From: a virus | Reading direction: 5' to 3' (one strand) | Length of the DNA: 28,646 bases | Virus record (IMG/VR): IMGVR_UViG_3300012928_000030 | Coordinates: 1-28,646 of that record | Part shown: positions 1 to 19,800 of the stretch, one piece after another | How the letters are laid out: every line of letters starts with the position of its first letter | Numbering within the stretch: position 1 is the first letter of the stretch | Translations under genes and position numbers: made by a program | Notes under the pieces: generated by a model | Databases searched by the model: none | What the model was told of the DNA's origin: nothing | Seen by the model: the letters and a program-made list of their open reading frames with translations, nothing else

Positions 1-2895
1 ATTACGGAGACGCAGGTCTCCACTGATTGTCAGATATGTGTCACCGAATGGGTCAATCTGAACCTCATCGATTTCCTGGAACAGTAAGTTTGATACAGCA
101 GTTGTTGAGTAAGTCAGTTCTGCAGTATTGTTTGGTTGAGCGCCTGCGGTATGTGTAGGAGCATTACCATCAGTAGCAGTAATACCAGCAACAGTTACTT
201 CATAAATGTTGTTTCTATGCTTTAGATATTCACCAACAGATACAGGAGTGTTTGATCTCCATTCTGTGTAAGCAGGAGCAGAAACGTTTAGAGACGCCAT
301 CTGCTTCAAAGTCTCAAAACTAAATCTAGTTGGACTAATTTTGAGAGTGTTTGCGTTTCCGTTGTAGAAGTAGAACGTATCGTCGTTTGCTCCTACAGTT
401 TCTTCTGCAGTTACATATGTATTACCATCAAGGTCTCTAATACCACCAAGAGAAGACCATGATGTGGTTACTGAACTATATCCTTCATATTGTGTGGTTT
501 GTGTATTATAACGAATAGCACCATTCTCTACTAGTCCTGGTCCAGGTCTTGCTGCAGTATTACCAGCAGGAATAATTAGTGAAGTGGTTCCGTCAATCTT
601 GACAACTCTATTAGGAGCAGGTGTTAGAAGAAGATCTTCAGTTCCTTGAGTAAAGATATTATTATCTTCAATCTTCAGCAAGTCTGAAGAGTTAAATGTT
701 CCTGTAGTCTTGATAGATCCTGCAGTTGTAAGATCTCCAGTATCTGCTGTAATTTCCAGCAGTGCAATAGCATCTACTGCTGGAGGAACAATACTTAATT
801 TCTGACCTTTAATGCTTACAGGACTGGTTAGTCCTGTAGACTGTAGAAGTAAATTTCCAGGAGAAACAACTTCAGTAGTATTTACTTTGTCGGATACATT
901 AATAACATCAACATTTGCTGTAGTAATTGTTGCAGCATCAGAAATAAGATCAGTAGAAGTTACCGTAACTGAATTTACATCACCACTACTTACATCCAAT
1001 GTAATGTTATCAGTGGATGTGATATCAGTAACAAGAACTTGAAATCCAGATCCAAAAGTTTTTGGATTATTTGGATCGATTGTCAACTCCGCTTCGAGTC
1101 CTGCAGTCCCTGCCATATTAGAGTGCTGCTGGCAGTAATAATATAGAGGAGTTGGTGTTGCAGCAGTTGGTTGAATTCTTGAGATGCTATCATCACGATA
1201 TGCAACTTCTTCTCCATCATATTCAACCCCAGCAAAAACCAAAGGTGCAGTTCCACTAGAAACTATTGGAGTATCAATTGTAACAACATTTCCATTTACT
1301 TCAGTTACAAAAGTTTCCGAATCAACCTGCCCTTCATCACTAATATCTGCATCCTCAGAAACAGTAACGTTCATCCCAACTAGAACTTTAGTTCCATCTC
1401 CAACTGTAATTGTAGTTGCTCCTTCAGTTAAAGTTGCACTAAATTCATACGTATTATGAATTCCATCTGGATGAATAGAGAATCTAAATGGGTGTGATGA
1501 AGCGTCCGAGTAATCAAAATCGTATGTATTATTAACGAATAGAGTTAAGTCTGGATGCCTAGTTGGATTGCCATCTCCAGTATCAATCAAGTATCTGGCA
1601 ACAGTATTTGTTTCATCAACTTCTAGAGATCCAATAGTATCTCCACTACCAATACTATCGGTTCCAGAGAACGTAAAAGTAACTAGAGTTATGATGCCTC
1701 CGCTTTGTTCTACTTCTTCACAGACTCCTGTAATTGTAGTAAAAGTTCCAGGATTAAGAGCATCTTCTTGCTGGAAGTTATATGATTGCCCAACAACAAA
1801 TGTTCCTGCTGTGGGATCAGTTGTAAATGTTACTTGAAGAAGATCTTCAGTTGTAACAAGATAAGGAATCGGTTGCGTTAGATCTAGATTAAAGATAGTT
1901 AGTGTATCATCAATACTGTATCCTTCTCCAGGTGCATTGATGGATACAGCTGTAATAATTCCTACAACATCAATAGTAAATTGATATCCATTACCATTAG
2001 TTCCCCATGGAGGAGTGATTGTCAAGGTGATCGTTCCACCATCACCTGTAGCAGGAGAAGTGTTTAGATCTAGAGATGTTCTATCTATAGCAACATTTTG
2101 AACAATAATGTCTGTTGGGTTGCCGTCAACATCTACTGGAGTTTGTAAGACTGCAGTTCCTGCAGTTTGAGTAACAATCCATCCAGATCCAACACCATCA
2201 GGAACAGTTGCGGTTACAGTAGTTTCGTCCTCATTGATATTTCCACTGAATCCTGTTACTTGACTAGGCAAAGTAAGAACATCATTTAACAGATATCCAT
2301 CACCATATTCACTGATAGTAGTGCTGGCGAATCCTCCATTAGAGAATTCCAAATTTACAACAGCACCAGTTCCAGTGCCACCAATTAGTGATACTCCATT
2401 ATAAGTAGGAGTTCCCAAAGACTCTCCTACAAATACATATCCACTGCCAGGAGTAGTGGTTCCATTGTATGGTGATACTGTGAGATCGAAGGTTCCTGCC
2501 TGACCAGTTCCACCAATGACAGGAATCTCTTCATAATCTCCCTGGTCGTAATCTTGACCTTGTGCAGTAATCTGGAGACCGTCACTTTTCAGAATGTTTT
2601 TCTGAAGAACAACATTTCTATAATAAAGAGATGCTTCGTTTTGAATCTGGTGTAGTTTCTTACCGTCAGATACAAATGCTAGAGTCTTTGTTCCTGGTCT
2701 AAAGATACCGACCGATGTGTCATTAACAAACGCAAGTGATGGTTCCGTTCTGGATCCATCACCCAACCTTAGAAGACCTGTAGATAAATCACTTCCACCA
2801 CCACCAATAGCAAACAAATCGCTCGCAAGTTGGTTGATAGTTTGTCGTTGCTTCTCAAATGTGTCTGATTTAGCTACGTTTCTAAGAATTGCCAT
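1..2895 (-). CDS. Tail-fibre-like virion structural protein, C-terminus cut off by the window edge
   Basis: The frame is open for 965 codons from ATG at 2895 to base 1 with no stop, so the gene continues to the left. The start follows AGAGAT about 8 bases upstream and overlaps the preceding 60-aa gene by 14 bases. The N-terminus (MAILRNVAKSDTFEKQRQ) is followed by a fibre-type segment (residues ~50-80, SLAFVNDTSVGIFRPGTKTL) seen in many phage fibre and virion proteins. Residues ~130-370 carry Gly-rich GxGY beads. Residues ~452-598 contain a cupredoxin-like pattern, annotated separately. Near residue 800 is GAIRYNTQTTQYEGY and then SLGGIRDLDGNTY, again typical of cyanophage structural proteins. 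The role as a fibre or peripheral baseplate protein is inferred from its place after the baseplate wedge genes and from these motifs. It could also be a decoration protein. No T4 gene number can be assigned. Confidence 0.85.
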   Translation of the reverse strand, partial: MAILRNVAKSDTFEKQRQTINQLASDLFAIGGGGSDLSTGLLRLGDGSRTEPSLAFVNDTSVGIFRPGTKTLAFVSDGKKLHQIQNEASLYYRNVVLQKNILKSDGLQITAQGQDYDQGDYEEIPVIGGTGQAGTFDLTVSPYNGTTTPGSGYVFVGESLGTPTYNGVSLIGGTGTGAVVNLEFSNGGFASTTISEYGDGYLLNDVLTLPSQVTGFSGNINEDETTVTATVPDGVGSGWIVTQTAGTAVLQTPVDVDGNPTDIIVQNVAIDRTSLDLNTSPATGDGGTITLTITPPWGTNGNGYQFTIDVVGIITAVSINAPGEGYSIDDTLTIFNLDLTQPIPYLVTTEDLLQVTFTTDPTAGTFVVGQSYNFQQEDALNPGTFTTITGVCEEVEQSGGIITLVTFTFSGTDSIGSGDTIGSLEVDETNTVARYLIDTGDGNPTRHPDLTLFVNNTYDFDYSDASSHPFRFSIHPDGIHNTYEFSATLTEGATTITVGDGTKVLVGMNVTVSEDADISDEGQVDSETFVTEVNGNVVTIDTPIVSSGTAPLVFAGVEYDGEEVAYRDDSISRIQPTAATPTPLYYYCQQHSNMAGTAGLEAELTIDPNNPKTFGSGFQVLVTDITSTDNITLDVSSGDVNSVTVTSTDLISDAATITTANVDVINVSDKVNTTEVVSPGNLLLQSTGLTSPVSIKGQKLSIVPPAVDAIALLEITADTGDLTTAGSIKTTGTFNSSDLLKIEDNNIFTQGTEDLLLTPAPNRVVKIDGTTSLIIPAGNTAARPGPGLVENGAIRYNTQTTQYEGYSSVTTSWSSLGGIRDLDGNTYVTAEETVGANDDTFYFYNGNANTLKISPTRFSFETLKQMASLNVSAPAYTEWRSNTPVSVGEYLKHRNNIYEVTVAGITATDGNAPTHTAGAQPNNTAELTYSTTAVSNLLFQEIDEVQIDPFGDTYLTISGDLRLRN
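1102..1542 (-). other. Cupredoxin-like (type-1 copper site) segment inside the fibre-like protein
   Basis: Residues ~452-598 of the left-edge structural protein. A strand-like stretch ending in Ser-Ser-His-Pro-Phe-Arg-Phe-Ser (His468) is followed, about 115 residues later, by Leu-Tyr-Tyr-Tyr-Cys588-Gln-Gln-His591-Ser-Asn-Met594-Ala-Gly. Plastocyanins and pseudoazurins bind copper through an early His in a His-Pro/Asn context and a late Tyr-x-Cys-x2-His-xn-Met loop. All four ligand types are present here in the right order. The Met lies two residues after the His-Ser pair, so the loop is shorter than in plastocyanin (Cys-x2-His-x4-Met). About 100 residues separate the two halves and include a repeat-like insertion. 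The residues are seen directly; copper binding is inference. Confidence 0.55.
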
Positions 2896-3064: not shown

Positions 3065-6000
3065 GTCGATGCCACTACTCTAATATCTTGGACCTTAGGA
3101 ACGTAAGATGGATCATCGGTCTTCATCGAAATCTTAACTCCGAATGAAGTAAATTCATCTAGGTTGTCAACACTAAATCTAAACTCTTGATAGGCAGATT
3201 GCTCTTCCTTCTGAGCGGAGATAGTATTCTGTGGTGTAGCGAGTTTGGGAGTATCCTCATATCCAGTTCCGTTAAAGAACTGCCATTCGATATCTTCAAA
3301 CTTTTTCTGGATAGAAGTAGTCTTGGTCTTGTATGAGAGTTGAATGTTCTTGCTATCAGTTACGTTTGCAGTGATGATAACATCAATTGCGCTTGCACCC
3401 TGAGCAAGACTGATCTCCTTAGTTACATACTTAGCAACGGAAGAGGTATCCTTTGCACTGTCTTCAGGAACAAAGTCTACACCCTCGGAGAATGTCATGG
3501 TCTTGATTTCATAGTATCTCTCATCACCTGCTCCCAGGTTAGACCAGGAAACAAGATCACCAGTTCTAAAGATGTCAGCAGACTGATCAGCAACTTGCTG
3601 GGTTCTGATGAAAGAACCAACTCCACTAGCACTAGAGTAATCAGAATTGATTGGTTGCTTATCGTTCTCTAGAGTCAGAGTCTGAGAAGGAACATCCCAG
3701 ATACGAACGGTTCCGTTGATCAAGTTGTCATATGTCTTAGTAGGATCAGAAGGATTGATTCCAGTAACTAGTTGACCGAACGAGAAGTCAGGAGTAACCT
3801 TGATTGCTCCAGCAGCACTGACGACAACTGTGTTATCTTCCAACTCACCGCTCTCTTGTGATTGCAGTGAGAAGAAGAGTTCTTCGTTTGCTTTGAATAC
3901 ATTATTGTTCTTGACCTTGACAAAGACAGTATTGTCAGAAGTTCTGTATCTAACAACTTCACCACGGGAACCAGATGCCTCAATGTTTAGTGCATCGTTA
4001 CCCATACCCTCAACAGTCTGACCAACGCTAATTACAATTGGATTGCTGTTGCTGTCCAGGTTGCCGCTTAGAGTCAATCTGTATACAGGGAAGAACTCAA
4101 TGACTTGGAATCTCTTACCGAATCTGTTCTCCTTACCAGCAGCGTTTTCGATTCTGTTGGAGGATAGTTTGATGGAAGATGTCTTGAGATCAAGGATTGG
4201 TGACAGGTATGTCTTAGTAGAAGAAAGTGTCAGTCTGTAAACAAGACTCTCGCCAAGGTTATTGAGGAGAGTGTTGATATCTGATGCAACAACCTTCTGG
4301 TTGATGAAGAACTGCTCTTCATTCAGGAATGTCTTTTCAAAGTCAGCAACAGAGTAAGAAGTGTAGTTCTCAGTCTTGGAGTCAACAGGAACTACATTAG
4401 TTGTCTTGATTGCAGTATCAATGTTTGTGGATGGGGACTGAATATATGAGAACTGTGCAAGAACTCTCTCATACTTCTTATTAGAAGTAATCAGTCCACT
4501 AGCACCACCACCGAATACTGTATCTGCTGCTCTACCGATACCTGATACACAGAACGAATCGATACCACAGTTAGATACCCTGAACAGAGTAGTGTTTAGT
4601 GATCCTTGTGTGAATCCAGCAGTGGTTGCTAGATTCTTGAAGAATACATATGACTTGCCATCTTCAAAACCATGGTTCTTATGGTTGACCTTGATGATGT
4701 TATTGTTGTTCTTAAACAACTCAGACGTTGCATTAGCATTTGCGAATGCATATGTCTCCAGAGGATTGTTGACCATATTCTCATAACCAAGTGACTGGTT
4801 AGTGATGTCAATGGTAGCAGTAGAAGAGATATCAAACTCAGCACGATAGAGAGTGAACTTGATGTCCTCGAACAGATCCTCTACCCAAGAACCAGTGTTC
4901 TGTGACTTATAGACAGAACCAAGTGATGGGTTAGTAGTAACTGTAGTGTTGGTTGCGATCTCAGTCTCACCAAGTTTGGATGCCCAGATGCCATAGTCTT
5001 GAGAATCAGTCTCGACAACTAGAGCATACTCGGTATTGTTCTGTAGATATACAGGATAGTCGAAGTGGAACTTGGTTGGAGTTGTAGATGGAACAACGCC
5101 AGTGGTGTCTGTAGCAACACCCATTCTTACAGCAGGTTCTGTGATTTCGATCTCTGCTTCGATAACTGCTCCGCCGTTACCTAGTCCTGTGCCTCTAATA
5201 ACAATCGAAGGTGGTTCGGTGTATCCTCTACCAGCAAGTGTGATAGTAGAATCATAGATCAGACCACCAGAAACTACAACCGTGCCAGTTGCGTTACTAC
5301 CGCCAGGTAGACTTGGAGACTCAACAGTAATAGTAGCAGTGTCATAGTTATCACCAGCGTTGGTAACCTTGAGTGCAGAGACAACACCAGAGTCCTTAGC
5401 AATTCTTGCAGTGATCTCAGTGTTGTTTGCGTTGTTGAATGTAGTGATGGAGGAGATCTTCAGACGCTCATCAGGAACGTATGAGATACCGTTGTTGTTA
5501 TCAAGAACAACAGTGTAGACCTGCTCATTGGTCAGGACAATCTCGTTATCTTCCGAGACAGCGAGTTCGTTGTTGTTCTTATCAAGAACTTTCAATACAG
5601 GACCAGATGCGTTGCTAGACTCTCCAGAGATTGTTTCACCCTTGAGGATAGTAACAGTGTCAGAAACATATACCTTCAGATAGGTGTAAGGTTCGACAAC
5701 AACCTCGGTTCCAGGAACAACATTTTTGCCTGGTTTCTCGGAGTTGACATCAGTCAGATATACACGGAGAGGGATGGTATCGCTCTTAGTGCTGAGGAAC
5801 AGATCTACGCCAGTTGTAAATACGCCACCCTCATAGTTCTCAACCTTAAAGGTCTGAGCGAGTGGATTTGGTTTCTGCTCTTGCTCTGTATTGCTAGAGA
5901 CCAACTGGGTTCCTTCGTTAGACTTGAAGTAAGCAGGTTTCGTGGATACGATAGAAGCAGGATTCTCAGGCAACAGACCAGTTGCATAGAACTTAGTTTC

Positions 6001-16800: not shown

Positions 16801-19800
16801 GACTCTACCATCAACTTCACCAAAGATTAGATATGGACCTGTTCCTCTATATGGGATCAGACGATCATCAATCTTGAATCTATCGTAGCTGCCGACTCCA
16901 TAACCAAAGAACGACTCTCTTTGATCTAGTTGAACGGGAACAGGATCGATATCATCTGCAAAATTTCTAGGAGGTTCTGCAAAAACAATTGCATCAGGTT
17001 CGCCAGCACCACTTCTTCTTAGAATATAGTATGCATTGCCTAATGGTGCTTCTACAGACTCTTTTGCTTCCTGTAGAATACCATTAATAAAGATAAGGAA
17101 CTTCTCGCCAGGATCTGCCTTGACAATAGAACCATCTTCCCAGTAGAGATCAAACTGATCTGCAATACCATCAAATCTAGGAGAGATGTCCTTAAGTTTT
17201 CTCAGATAGCGAGAGTTGAAAGCATTATCTTTGAACTTGAATGCCTTACAGACTAGTAGAGCAGGATCAGTCTCATAAGTGTCATCTAGGTTCTCTCCTG
17301 TTTGTGGGAAGAGAGGACCAAGAGGAGGTTCACTGAATGTGATCTGTGAACCAGACAGTTCAAATGATTTGCCAGGTTCCTGTGCAACACCATTTAGTGT
17401 GAGGAAGAGTTCTTGCTCATTATATGGTGAGTATGGAAGATTGTTTGCTTTGTCTACAAGAGTAAAGGTCTTTCTGCCAAGAATGTTGCCATTGCCAATA
17501 ACACCCTCTGCAATATCATATGCAGGAGAGTTGATTTCGACAGTTTCGAGAGTAATATAAGATGTTGCGTTCTCGTAGAAGGTAAGTTCGTCACCAACCT
17601 CAAACCCAGATGCAATCTTAGAGAAGTCAGACTCACTTGATAGAATCACTGCACCAAAGGTTGCAAGATCAACATCAGCAGCAGGTGACCCTGTGGAAAA
17701 CTCTCCAAAGTTGAACATGTAACCAATTGTCATGCTCTGGATCAAGGTAAGATCAAAGATACCTGATCCGCTAGTTACATACTCATCATTAGGTAAGATA
17801 TCATAGTTGTCATTGGAATCCCATGCTTGAACAGGAGATCCAGGACCAATATATGGTTGAACAGCAGGAATATTGGCACTGTTGCTAACTAGATTAAATT
17901 TAACCCAGTGAGCATACAGACCAGGAGTAACTGCAATAGAACTACCCCAAGAAGTATCGGCAAAGTTCCCTTGAGCACCACCTACTTTAGTGATTGCTCT
18001 AATAGAACCCACATAATCTACAGCGGTAGCATAGCGACCAGTGAAAGGTTCTAGGATTGTCAGTTCTCTAGCGATGATACCTTCAGTATCATACTCATCG
18101 ATAGAGATAGAACCTTGACCCCTGATCAAGTTCGTATCTGCAATAGATACAAATGAATTTGTGACCCTTGTGCTCTTTCTCTCTACAGTTACTACCTTGG
18201 GAGCAAGTTCAATGTAACTGATAGATGTAGTAGGAGTCTGATCAGTAGGCATTGTTGCTTCCTGTTCAGAATCAATCAGAACTTCACCGAACAGTTGGAA
18301 ACCTGCAGGGTGTGTAGTCTGCTTGATTAGATCTCTCCATACATCAATAGCAGTTCTAGACTGAATGACGTATGAGAAGTCTTGGTAGTAGTAAGAATCA
18401 ATTACCTTTTGGTATCTGCTGCCAACTTTGCCTTTGTCGGATGCATATCTACCAAGATTGTCGAAATAGGTTCTAACATCAGAATCAAACTCGGTAAACA
18501 GGACATCAGATACCTCAACGTTTCTGCTGGGATCCATTGCAGAAGCAAGAGGTAGACTAGTGTCTACAACACCACTTACTTTGTTGAGTCTAAGGATATT
18601 TGATCCTGTTCTCCAACCTTTGTCGGAAACATAAGCACTAAAGATCAGTGCAGAACCAACACGCTGCTCTACTCGCTCTCCTTTGAAGAACTTAGCATCT
18701 CCTTTATAGATGATAGCGTAGTTTGATCTGTAACTAGACTCTAGAGTTGCATCATTGTGGAAAGAACCACCATTACTGATAATACTGATGTCTTGTGGTA
18801 GACCAATGCTCTCAGATTCAAAGAATGCATCGATAGCACCCTCATATACAGATACAGTAGGAGCAAAGGTGTAACCACTACCACCAGACAATACATCGAT
18901 TCTAGTAATCCTACCAGCATCACTTACTACAGTGAAGTGAGCACCAACACCGTCTCCATTGGTGACAACTGCTTTAGGATTGATGTAGTTCTTACCACCT
19001 TGATCGATTTGGATACCTTTAATTGACTGGGTGATCGAATCCCATGCCACAGTCAGTAGTGGTTCGTTATTGTCAGTTACAAGACAACCCTCAACAATAG
19101 GAGATCTCTTATATCCTGCTCCAAGGTTGTTGATTGTAGTCTTGGTGATCTTACCTTCAGCAAAAGGTGAAGATGTAGTATATGTGATAGCGCCACTTCC
19201 TTGATAATCAGGAACATCAGGCAACTGATATGCAAACTTAGTTGGTGTTGTGAACTTAACTGTCTTAGGACCAGTCAAAGGATCATCAATGACTTTCAAC
19301 GAAGCATTGTCGGTATTGACATCACTGGATGCCTTGATAAAGTAGTAGTATGTGTCAAAGTTGACTGGGAATCTCTGTTGATCGAGACCAGCGATGTTAG
19401 GACCAAATCCTAGTGTCACAGCAACATATGAACCAGCATTGCCTGGTTGAATGCCGCTTACCTCTTTCTCTTCAGTAAAGATAGTTCCAGTTCTGCTAGC
19501 AGAGAAATCAAGGAACACACCATTCATAGAAATATGACTGGTGTCGAACAAGTAACGATAGTATTTCTGAATACGAATGTCAGTGTTTCTGCCATACGAC
19601 GCAAATGTGACATCTTTAGAGAACTCTAGGTTGTTCTCACCGCGAGTTGACGAAGCAATATTGATAGACTTTCTAGGAGAACTATCATCTTGGAAGATGC
19701 TGCTGTTAGTAACTTCTCTAGGAGCAGGAGCACCGTAGTTATATGCTAAAGTTACTTTTTGAGTGATTGGATCATAATCAATGATATATGGATCATTGAC

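Follow-up and report, generated by a model that had tools for sequence, protein, structure and literature searches.

The residues encoded at positions 1102-1542 of IMG/VR virus record IMGVR_UViG_3300012928_000030 (positions 1 to 28,646, the full record, were analysed and are here called the window) are predicted to form most of a cupredoxin domain that carries an intact type-1 copper ligand set, is interrupted by a phage beta module and lies in a virion protein of a cyanomyovirus. In this reading, to which we give a probability of about 0.6, four residues would hold one copper ion. Its parts differ in strength: the site probably binds a metal of some kind, and copper in particular is a modestly favoured candidate. 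By sequence comparison, the domain is a member of a cupredoxin family that marine phages have shuffled between tail and baseplate proteins. A first-pass annotation had pointed to a plastocyanin-like ligand pattern in a cyanophage structural protein; the finding is real, and more general than that annotation supposed. A search of open PMC full text for copper proteins in phages and for cyanophage baseplates (titles and abstract openings among the matches listed; subscription papers and preprints lie outside it) returned no description of a cupredoxin in a phage virion protein.

Positions 1102-1542 correspond exactly to residues 452-598 of a minus-strand open reading frame (ORF). The type-1 order His...Cys-x(n)-His-x(n)-Met is present in this segment as His468, the first ligand, followed by Pro (1492-1494, minus strand), Cys588 (1132-1134, minus), His591 (1123-1125, minus) and the axial ligand Met594 (1114-1116, minus). 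All four codons lie where they had been placed by the first-pass annotation, and all four residues align with the ligands of an uninterrupted family described below. Just two cysteines, 392 and 588, occur in the 965 residues of the ORF. When the protein was shuffled 200,000 times with its composition kept, C-x2-H-x2-M appeared in 15 shuffles, and in 13 of these a His preceded it by 10-160 residues, so that chance is a poor account of the motif, homology aside. The loop is also shorter than that of plastocyanin, as had been noted: the phage plastocyanins fetched have C-x2-H-x4-M. The C-x2-H-x2-M spacing is that of amicyanin, a free periplasmic electron carrier.

Residues 425-619 (domain B; 1039..1623, minus strand) were modelled with AlphaFold2 from 56 aligned sequences, giving a predicted local distance difference test score (pLDDT) of 89.6 and a predicted template modelling score (pTM) of 0.83. 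The model has a cupredoxin-type Greek-key beta sandwich in two halves, delimited with a profile of the uninterrupted family (A5) and, for the first half, the cupredoxin rows of VIA-align. The first half contains His468 (residues ~430-481; 1453..1608, minus) and the second the Cys-His-Met loop (residues ~558-604; 1084..1224, minus). Between them VIA-align places a phage beta module of 76 residues (~482-557; 1225..1452, minus). The predicted sandwich agrees with the fold that had been proposed, except that its core is interrupted; the separation of ~100 residues that had been remarked on is explained by the inserted module, and in the model the phage module enters the cupredoxin behind the strand region that bears the first His, which produces the "split core". 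The insert (model residues 58-132) resembles phage proteins (8eci, Z score 7.4; 4ru4, 6.9; 9n71, over 58-133, 6.7; 8rk3, 6.6). Further copies of this type of module occur elsewhere in homologues (25 displayed), and the insert is absent from L003 and S-WAM2.

Outside the insert, the best copper-protein match of the model is a nitrite reductase domain, the N-terminal cupredoxin of the Hyphomicrobium enzyme (2dv6, Z 6.4, 90 residues aligned, 2.9 Å), followed by 6tfd (6.1), 6tfo (6.0), the two-domain laccase 7pu0 (5.4) and rusticyanin entries (4.9-4.6; 1a3z, 4.9). Copper proteins account for eight of the nine listed VIA-align rows that span this part; azurin, amicyanin and pseudoazurin are not among the rows listed, which excludes nothing. 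These cupredoxin Z scores (4.6-6.4) are middling and would not decide the matter by themselves, and Foldseek gave no match for the model at E <= 0.001. An uninterrupted relative of 113 residues (L107) was modelled for this reason. Its model has a pLDDT of 95.9 and again matches 2dv6 best (Z 9.7, 98 aligned, 2.5 Å), with rusticyanin at 8.7 and small laccases at 8.4-7.9. All 50 of the structural matches listed are copper proteins, mostly small two-domain laccases, which are one family. In Foldseek, McoA, nitrite reductase and rusticyanin lead, with two matches under 0.001.

A profile of the window-domain family (A3) was compared with A5, which holds no window sequence, and hhalign matched them at 99.5% (E 2.8e-23), the first His and the Cys-x2-His-x2-Met loops of the two being aligned. 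Searched against 12 window ORFs, A5 matched the window protein twice, at residues 434-508 (i-Evalue 2.1e-9, His on His) and at residues 574-602 (i-Evalue 1.1e-6, with C, H and M aligned). The two matches are collinear and lie on either side of the insert. At the level of sequence, then, these are homologous families.

Judging from its sequence distribution, the uninterrupted form is widespread as a module of marine phage virion proteins. It was found in 327 IMG/VR stretches, of which 80 were kept, and C-x2-H-x2-M is present in 82 of 83 module copies. In the remaining copy, from the frame of L103 that starts at 5504, Gln occupies the axial Met position, and axial Gln is the arrangement of stellacyanin-type sites. 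His, Cys and His make up three of the five invariant columns in 59 uninterrupted relatives (29-89% identical to the first). This invariance arises partly by selection, since the ligand loop was part of the peptide patterns with which the module was sought in IMG/VR and in bacterial contigs, and since A5 contains 20 domain-A rows (see below) picked for being intact. The module often stands near the N-terminus of proteins of ~300-500 residues, where the ligand Cys is often the only Cys, and it also occurs inside other proteins; the labels of its PHROG matches are tail fibre, baseplate wedge, baseplate wedge-tail fibre connector and virion protein. In two proteins of ~250-270 residues (L154, L183) it follows a Cys-rich N-terminus that looks zinc-ribbon-like by eye.

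Among 69 annotated phage records with the module, 57 are named Synechococcus, Prochlorococcus or cyanophage, four Pelagibacter, four Methylophilales and four otherwise. No annotation among the 60 matches listed for these records names the feature as a copper protein, and Pfam and NCBIfam did not recognise the uninterrupted module as a copper protein in the copies scanned. Nine of ten isolates picked for diversity have the full set of His, Cys, His and Met (H-C-H-M): S-TIM5, Baldr, HTVC028P, Mosig, Melnitz, MED4-213, P-SSM2, P-SCSP2 and S-CAM22. The tenth, PSS2, has a free-standing version of 112 residues beside its tape measure gene (L249:1492-1830), with Asp, Ala and Thr in place of His, Cys and His. 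The module also occurs at 46 loci in contigs binned as marine bacteria, of which 24 were read and some look like phage genes; one copy (L225) is without Cys and the second His. The description of the window protein as a cyanophage structural protein holds for that protein, while the uninterrupted form extends to Pelagibacter and Methylophilales phages and to marine bacterial contigs.

Conservation of the site itself was assessed in 100 proteins: the window protein, homologues from 19 GenBank phages (of 54 records) and homologues from 80 IMG/VR loci, of which 71 are distinct and which scored best among 158 relatives, gathered by tblastn or by patterns without any ligand. In domain B, His468, Cys588 and His591 are all present in 79 proteins and all absent in 12, and nine keep His468 alone, so that His is found in 88 of 100. 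Cys588 and His591 are both present in 79 and both absent in 21, and never does one occur without the other. Where the ligand set is kept, Met is the usual axial residue; Glu takes its place in some longer-loop homologues and Val in two. The window protein and the nine near relatives listed with it keep all four ligands. Free variation of the ligands, which would have spoken against the first-pass annotation, is therefore not a feature of the close relatives, although more distant ones have lost the site. These patterns suggest that the metal site tends to go as a unit while ligand-free scaffolds persist, and hence that the role of the site may be separate from folding.

A second, uninterrupted cupredoxin (domain A) is found near residue 300 in 45 of the 100 proteins and is intact in 41. 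It occurs in longer homologues (L007, L014, L016, L017, L018, L020) and is absent from the window protein. Of the four broken copies, three (L094-L096) keep Cys and Met and neither His, and one (L078) is without all ligands. Counting either domain, a full H-C-H-M set is present in 90 of the 100 proteins; the other ten have only H-C-H-Glu (six), only H-C-H-Val (two) or no set (two, S-WAM2 and L041). After clustering at 80% identity, the corresponding numbers for 50 clusters are 43, four, one and two. The two H-C-H-Glu-only cases among the 19 searched phage records, S-PM2 (L005) and S-B43 (L012), are also the only two of the 19 without a PF00127 gene, a coincidence of small numbers noticed after the fact.

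The canonical short Met loop is present at domain B in two of the 41 proteins with an intact domain A, compared with 48 of the 59 without one (2/22 versus 20/28 at 80% clusters, Fisher 1.0e-5); with an intact A, domain B usually has a longer loop or has lost the set. In these counts domain A was taken to be missing from three proteins truncated at the 5' end (L039, L062, L077), two domain-A hits overlapping domain B were counted as absent, and two duplicates (L001 and L002, of L023 and L024) and one different protein (L003) were dropped. A quick tree was built from the C-terminal parts of 55 proteins, with rows cut at the 5' end or with <250 residues past domain B excluded and with a long-branch warning on S-PM2 with S-WAM2. 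On this tree domain A changed at least 10 times and domain B 12 times, and the switch between them was not significant (7 independent pairs, 4.1 versus 1.5, median p 0.45; reverse pairing, 8 pairs, 4.3 versus 1.5, p 0.38; with "B not lost", 3.4 versus 0.2, p 0.25). Complementary sites in A and B, strong in the raw counts, are thus kept as a lead only.

Several observations weigh against an intact copper site in a cupredoxin fold. Besides the middling scores of the window model and the insignificant tree test, the first Foldseek ranks for that model are not copper proteins, with the cupredoxin AcoP just at ranks 20 and 37; one non-copper row, the immunoglobulin (Ig) domain 7ok5, matches the same non-insert part at Z 4.1; and titin Ig domains appear at Foldseek ranks 45 and 48 even for L107. 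Pfam and NCBIfam returned no copper family for the window protein. Among the homologues, the loss of Cys588 and His591 in 21 of 100 and the altered sites in others (axial Glu, longer loop) count on the same side, and keeping the best-scoring 80 of 158 relatives may have inflated the proportion with intact ligands. In addition, little free copper is available in the host cytoplasm, in which phage proteins fold. Finally, 24 of the 33 PDB rows returned by A5 are not copper proteins, being mostly antibodies, and they rank below five plastocyanins.

Alternatively, the cupredoxin may now serve as a mere structural or adhesive scaffold, like the Ig-like domains of phage tails, its ligands persisting by descent with no metal in the virion. 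The retention of a ligand-free domain, in 21 of 100 proteins at domain B and in the 112-residue protein of PSS2, fits this explanation, as does the shuffling of the module among virion proteins in the manner of Ig-like domains. However, the strict pairing of Cys588 with His591, the full set somewhere in 90 of 100 proteins and the place of His, Cys and His among the few invariant columns of the partly motif-selected uninterrupted relatives argue otherwise, and we regard a metal-free scaffold as rather unlikely. A site occupied by a metal other than copper, for example zinc as a structural cross-link, is a further alternative. Cys-His-His-X sites can take zinc, and H-C-H-Glu, the sole set in six of the 100 proteins, would suit zinc or a red-copper type of site. 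Since the fold and the order and spacing of the ligands are those of type-1 copper proteins, with Met as the usual axial residue, this alternative appears unlikely.

In the profile search that the first-pass annotation had proposed, the window protein matched no Pfam or NCBIfam copper family, the excised stretch gave DUF5979 alone and below cut-off, the PHROG search of the window protein gave no copper family, and phmmer with the 965 residues found nothing in the PDB at E <= 1. Profiles of the family performed differently. With A5, the top five PDB rows are plastocyanins (E 0.0087-0.011) and the sixth is an antibody; copper proteins make up nine of the 33 rows. The A1 search is headed by two plastocyanins (E 0.019 and 0.074), although the alignment crosses insert columns and just the loop end is meaningful. 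A small set (A2) gave five rows, of which the top four are chains of antibodies or T-cell receptors and the fifth is a copper oxidase, a warning that YYYC alone matches Ig domains.

One form of the module comes close to a known family. In ACG-2014e (162199-162435) and S-CAM4 (166605-166841), a module with His-Pro-Phe and C-x2-H-x2-M (L240/L241) in an open frame of ~690 residues matches Pfam PF00127 Copper-bind at E 0.001 (19.8 and 19.6 bits; cut-off 21.2), and hhalign aligns it with A5 at 94.8% (E 5.1e-8). Matches over the cut-off were counted, without alignment, in a 685-residue frame of ACG-2014j_US103 when taken with its neighbours and likewise in a 285-residue frame of Sf-CH1b.

The first-pass annotation had also raised a capture-derived fold, and in favour of a recent capture of host or phage plastocyanin (petE), a PF00127 plastocyanin-like gene is present in 17 of the 19 searched phage records. 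The phage petE profile, a small set of seven rows, gave just 11.3% with A5 and 2.8% with A3 in hhalign, with just the loop region aligned, against the 99.5% between A3 and A5, and the loop spacing differs. The same profile gave just 14.7% with the PF00127-touching module of ACG-2014e and S-CAM4, so this weak test speaks against recent capture and not against a distant common origin. Recent capture is thus unsupported and in our estimate highly improbable. The same loop and profile values do not fit plastocyanin proper.

We also considered whether the domain could do electron transfer from the virion, as a redox carrier or as a trigger, by passing or taking an electron at adsorption between itself and partners in the periplasm or on the host surface. 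The full type-1 set and the electron-transfer cupredoxins among the structural matches are consistent with this, and so are five lipoprotein-like relatives from Gammaproteobacteria and SAR86 (L204, L212, L217, L222, L223), which have a hydrophobic start ending ACGGGG and all four ligands, as a periplasmic or outer-membrane carrier might. By sequence these cellular relatives are a possible source or parallel of the phage domain. Yet the scan of other genes in the window recognised none with a redox role, no partner is known, and the domain lies within a structural protein of >965 residues; electron transfer of this kind therefore seems improbable. More broadly, a dedicated virion cupredoxin family could put copper on marine phage tails, where it would engage copper- or redox-related host surface proteins or act as a redox switch for adsorption, in a manner analogous, with copper, to the "Ferrojan horse" proposed for iron. 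Each protein would then often have one intact site, whose position along the chain may shift while the site is kept. We hold this broader proposal to be doubtful.

Under the favoured reading, a type-1 copper site in an interrupted cupredoxin, the domain would be displayed on the virion, His468, Cys588, His591 and Met594 would together hold one copper ion, and the metal-holding loop would form a rigid surface touching the host or other tail parts. Ligand-free homologues keep the domain, so that metal is seemingly not needed merely for folding, which makes some redox or copper-dependent chemistry plausible.

Among the closest known systems is the three-domain copper nitrite reductase of Hyphomicrobium denitrificans (2dv6, 6tfo, 6tfd), in which a cupredoxin likewise lies within a larger protein. 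Identity to it is 18-19%, and the window domain differs in having a beta insert and in being part of a virion. With plastocyanin (PF00127; petE of cyanobacteria and phages) it shares the His, Cys-x2-His, Met order, and plastocyanins supply the top PDB profile rows, but they differ in their longer loop and in the weak profile match. Rusticyanin shares the cupredoxin fold (Z 4.9 with the window model, 8.7 with the uninterrupted one) and is a longer free protein with a different loop. The Ig-like domains of phage structural proteins are also small beta sandwiches shuffled among tail, baseplate and fibre proteins, but they have no metal site, in contrast to the type-1 ligand set of the window domain.

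Were copper present in these sites, some of the tailed phages in the ocean would be metalloparticles with redox-active metal in the virion, which would bear on attachment, virion stability and trace-metal cycling. The copper claim is testable in cultured isolates, including S-RIM44, S-RSM4, S-TIM5 and Pelagibacter phage Baldr. The domain also provides a concrete identity for part of the large class of unassigned cyanophage virion proteins.

The window ORF (1..2895, minus strand) encodes 965 residues, with its 3' end open and its C-terminus past the window edge. The profile of PHROG 6005, "virion structural protein", aligns with it in three stretches (E=0, 1032 bits), best over residues 391-965; the library labels this family head and packaging, and no copper domain is noted for it. 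With this protein, tblastn found 54 phage records, all bearing the names Synechococcus, Prochlorococcus or cyanophage; in 35, a single place covers at least 80%. Cyanophage S-RIM44 (64%) and Sf-CH3/Sf-FP1 (61.5%) come closest. The adjoining 8274-base gene has 91% DNA identity to S-RIM44, a Vellamovirus of Kyanoviridae. These similarities identify the ORF as a virion protein of a T4-like cyanomyovirus.

Upstream of the ORF, in transcription order, are genes for a baseplate wedge protein of 130 residues (phrog_261), a second of 602 (phrog_219), a virion protein of 3334, a virion protein of 176, a third baseplate-wedge protein of 627 (phrog_438), a protein of unknown function of 2757 and a virion protein of 60, the wedge and virion proteins being named from PHROG labels. 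We take the three wedge-labelled genes to be counterparts of T4 gp25, gp6 and gp8, which presumably places the ORF where T4 has gp9-gp12. These neighbours point to the baseplate, as against the head and packaging label, and gene order together with the PHROG labels suggests that the 965-residue protein probably has a place in the baseplate rim or fibre network. According to a review (PMC2984593), T4 g10, g11, g12, g34, g35 and g37 are among the genes missing from cyanomyoviruses, whose tail-fibre proteins are possibly replaced by unassigned virion proteins. The 965-residue protein was not seen named in the parts covered of a cyanophage virion-proteomics paper (PMC3037559). Within the window, the 3334-residue virion protein gave a weak cupredoxin-profile match at residues ~1429-1486 (19411-19563, minus strand; i-Evalue 6.8e-5, 12 ORFs), with no His or Cys at the ligand places, so this segment is possibly a ligand-free cupredoxin copy. 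Weak matches of the same kind occur in the ~3000-3700-residue open frames of other phages.

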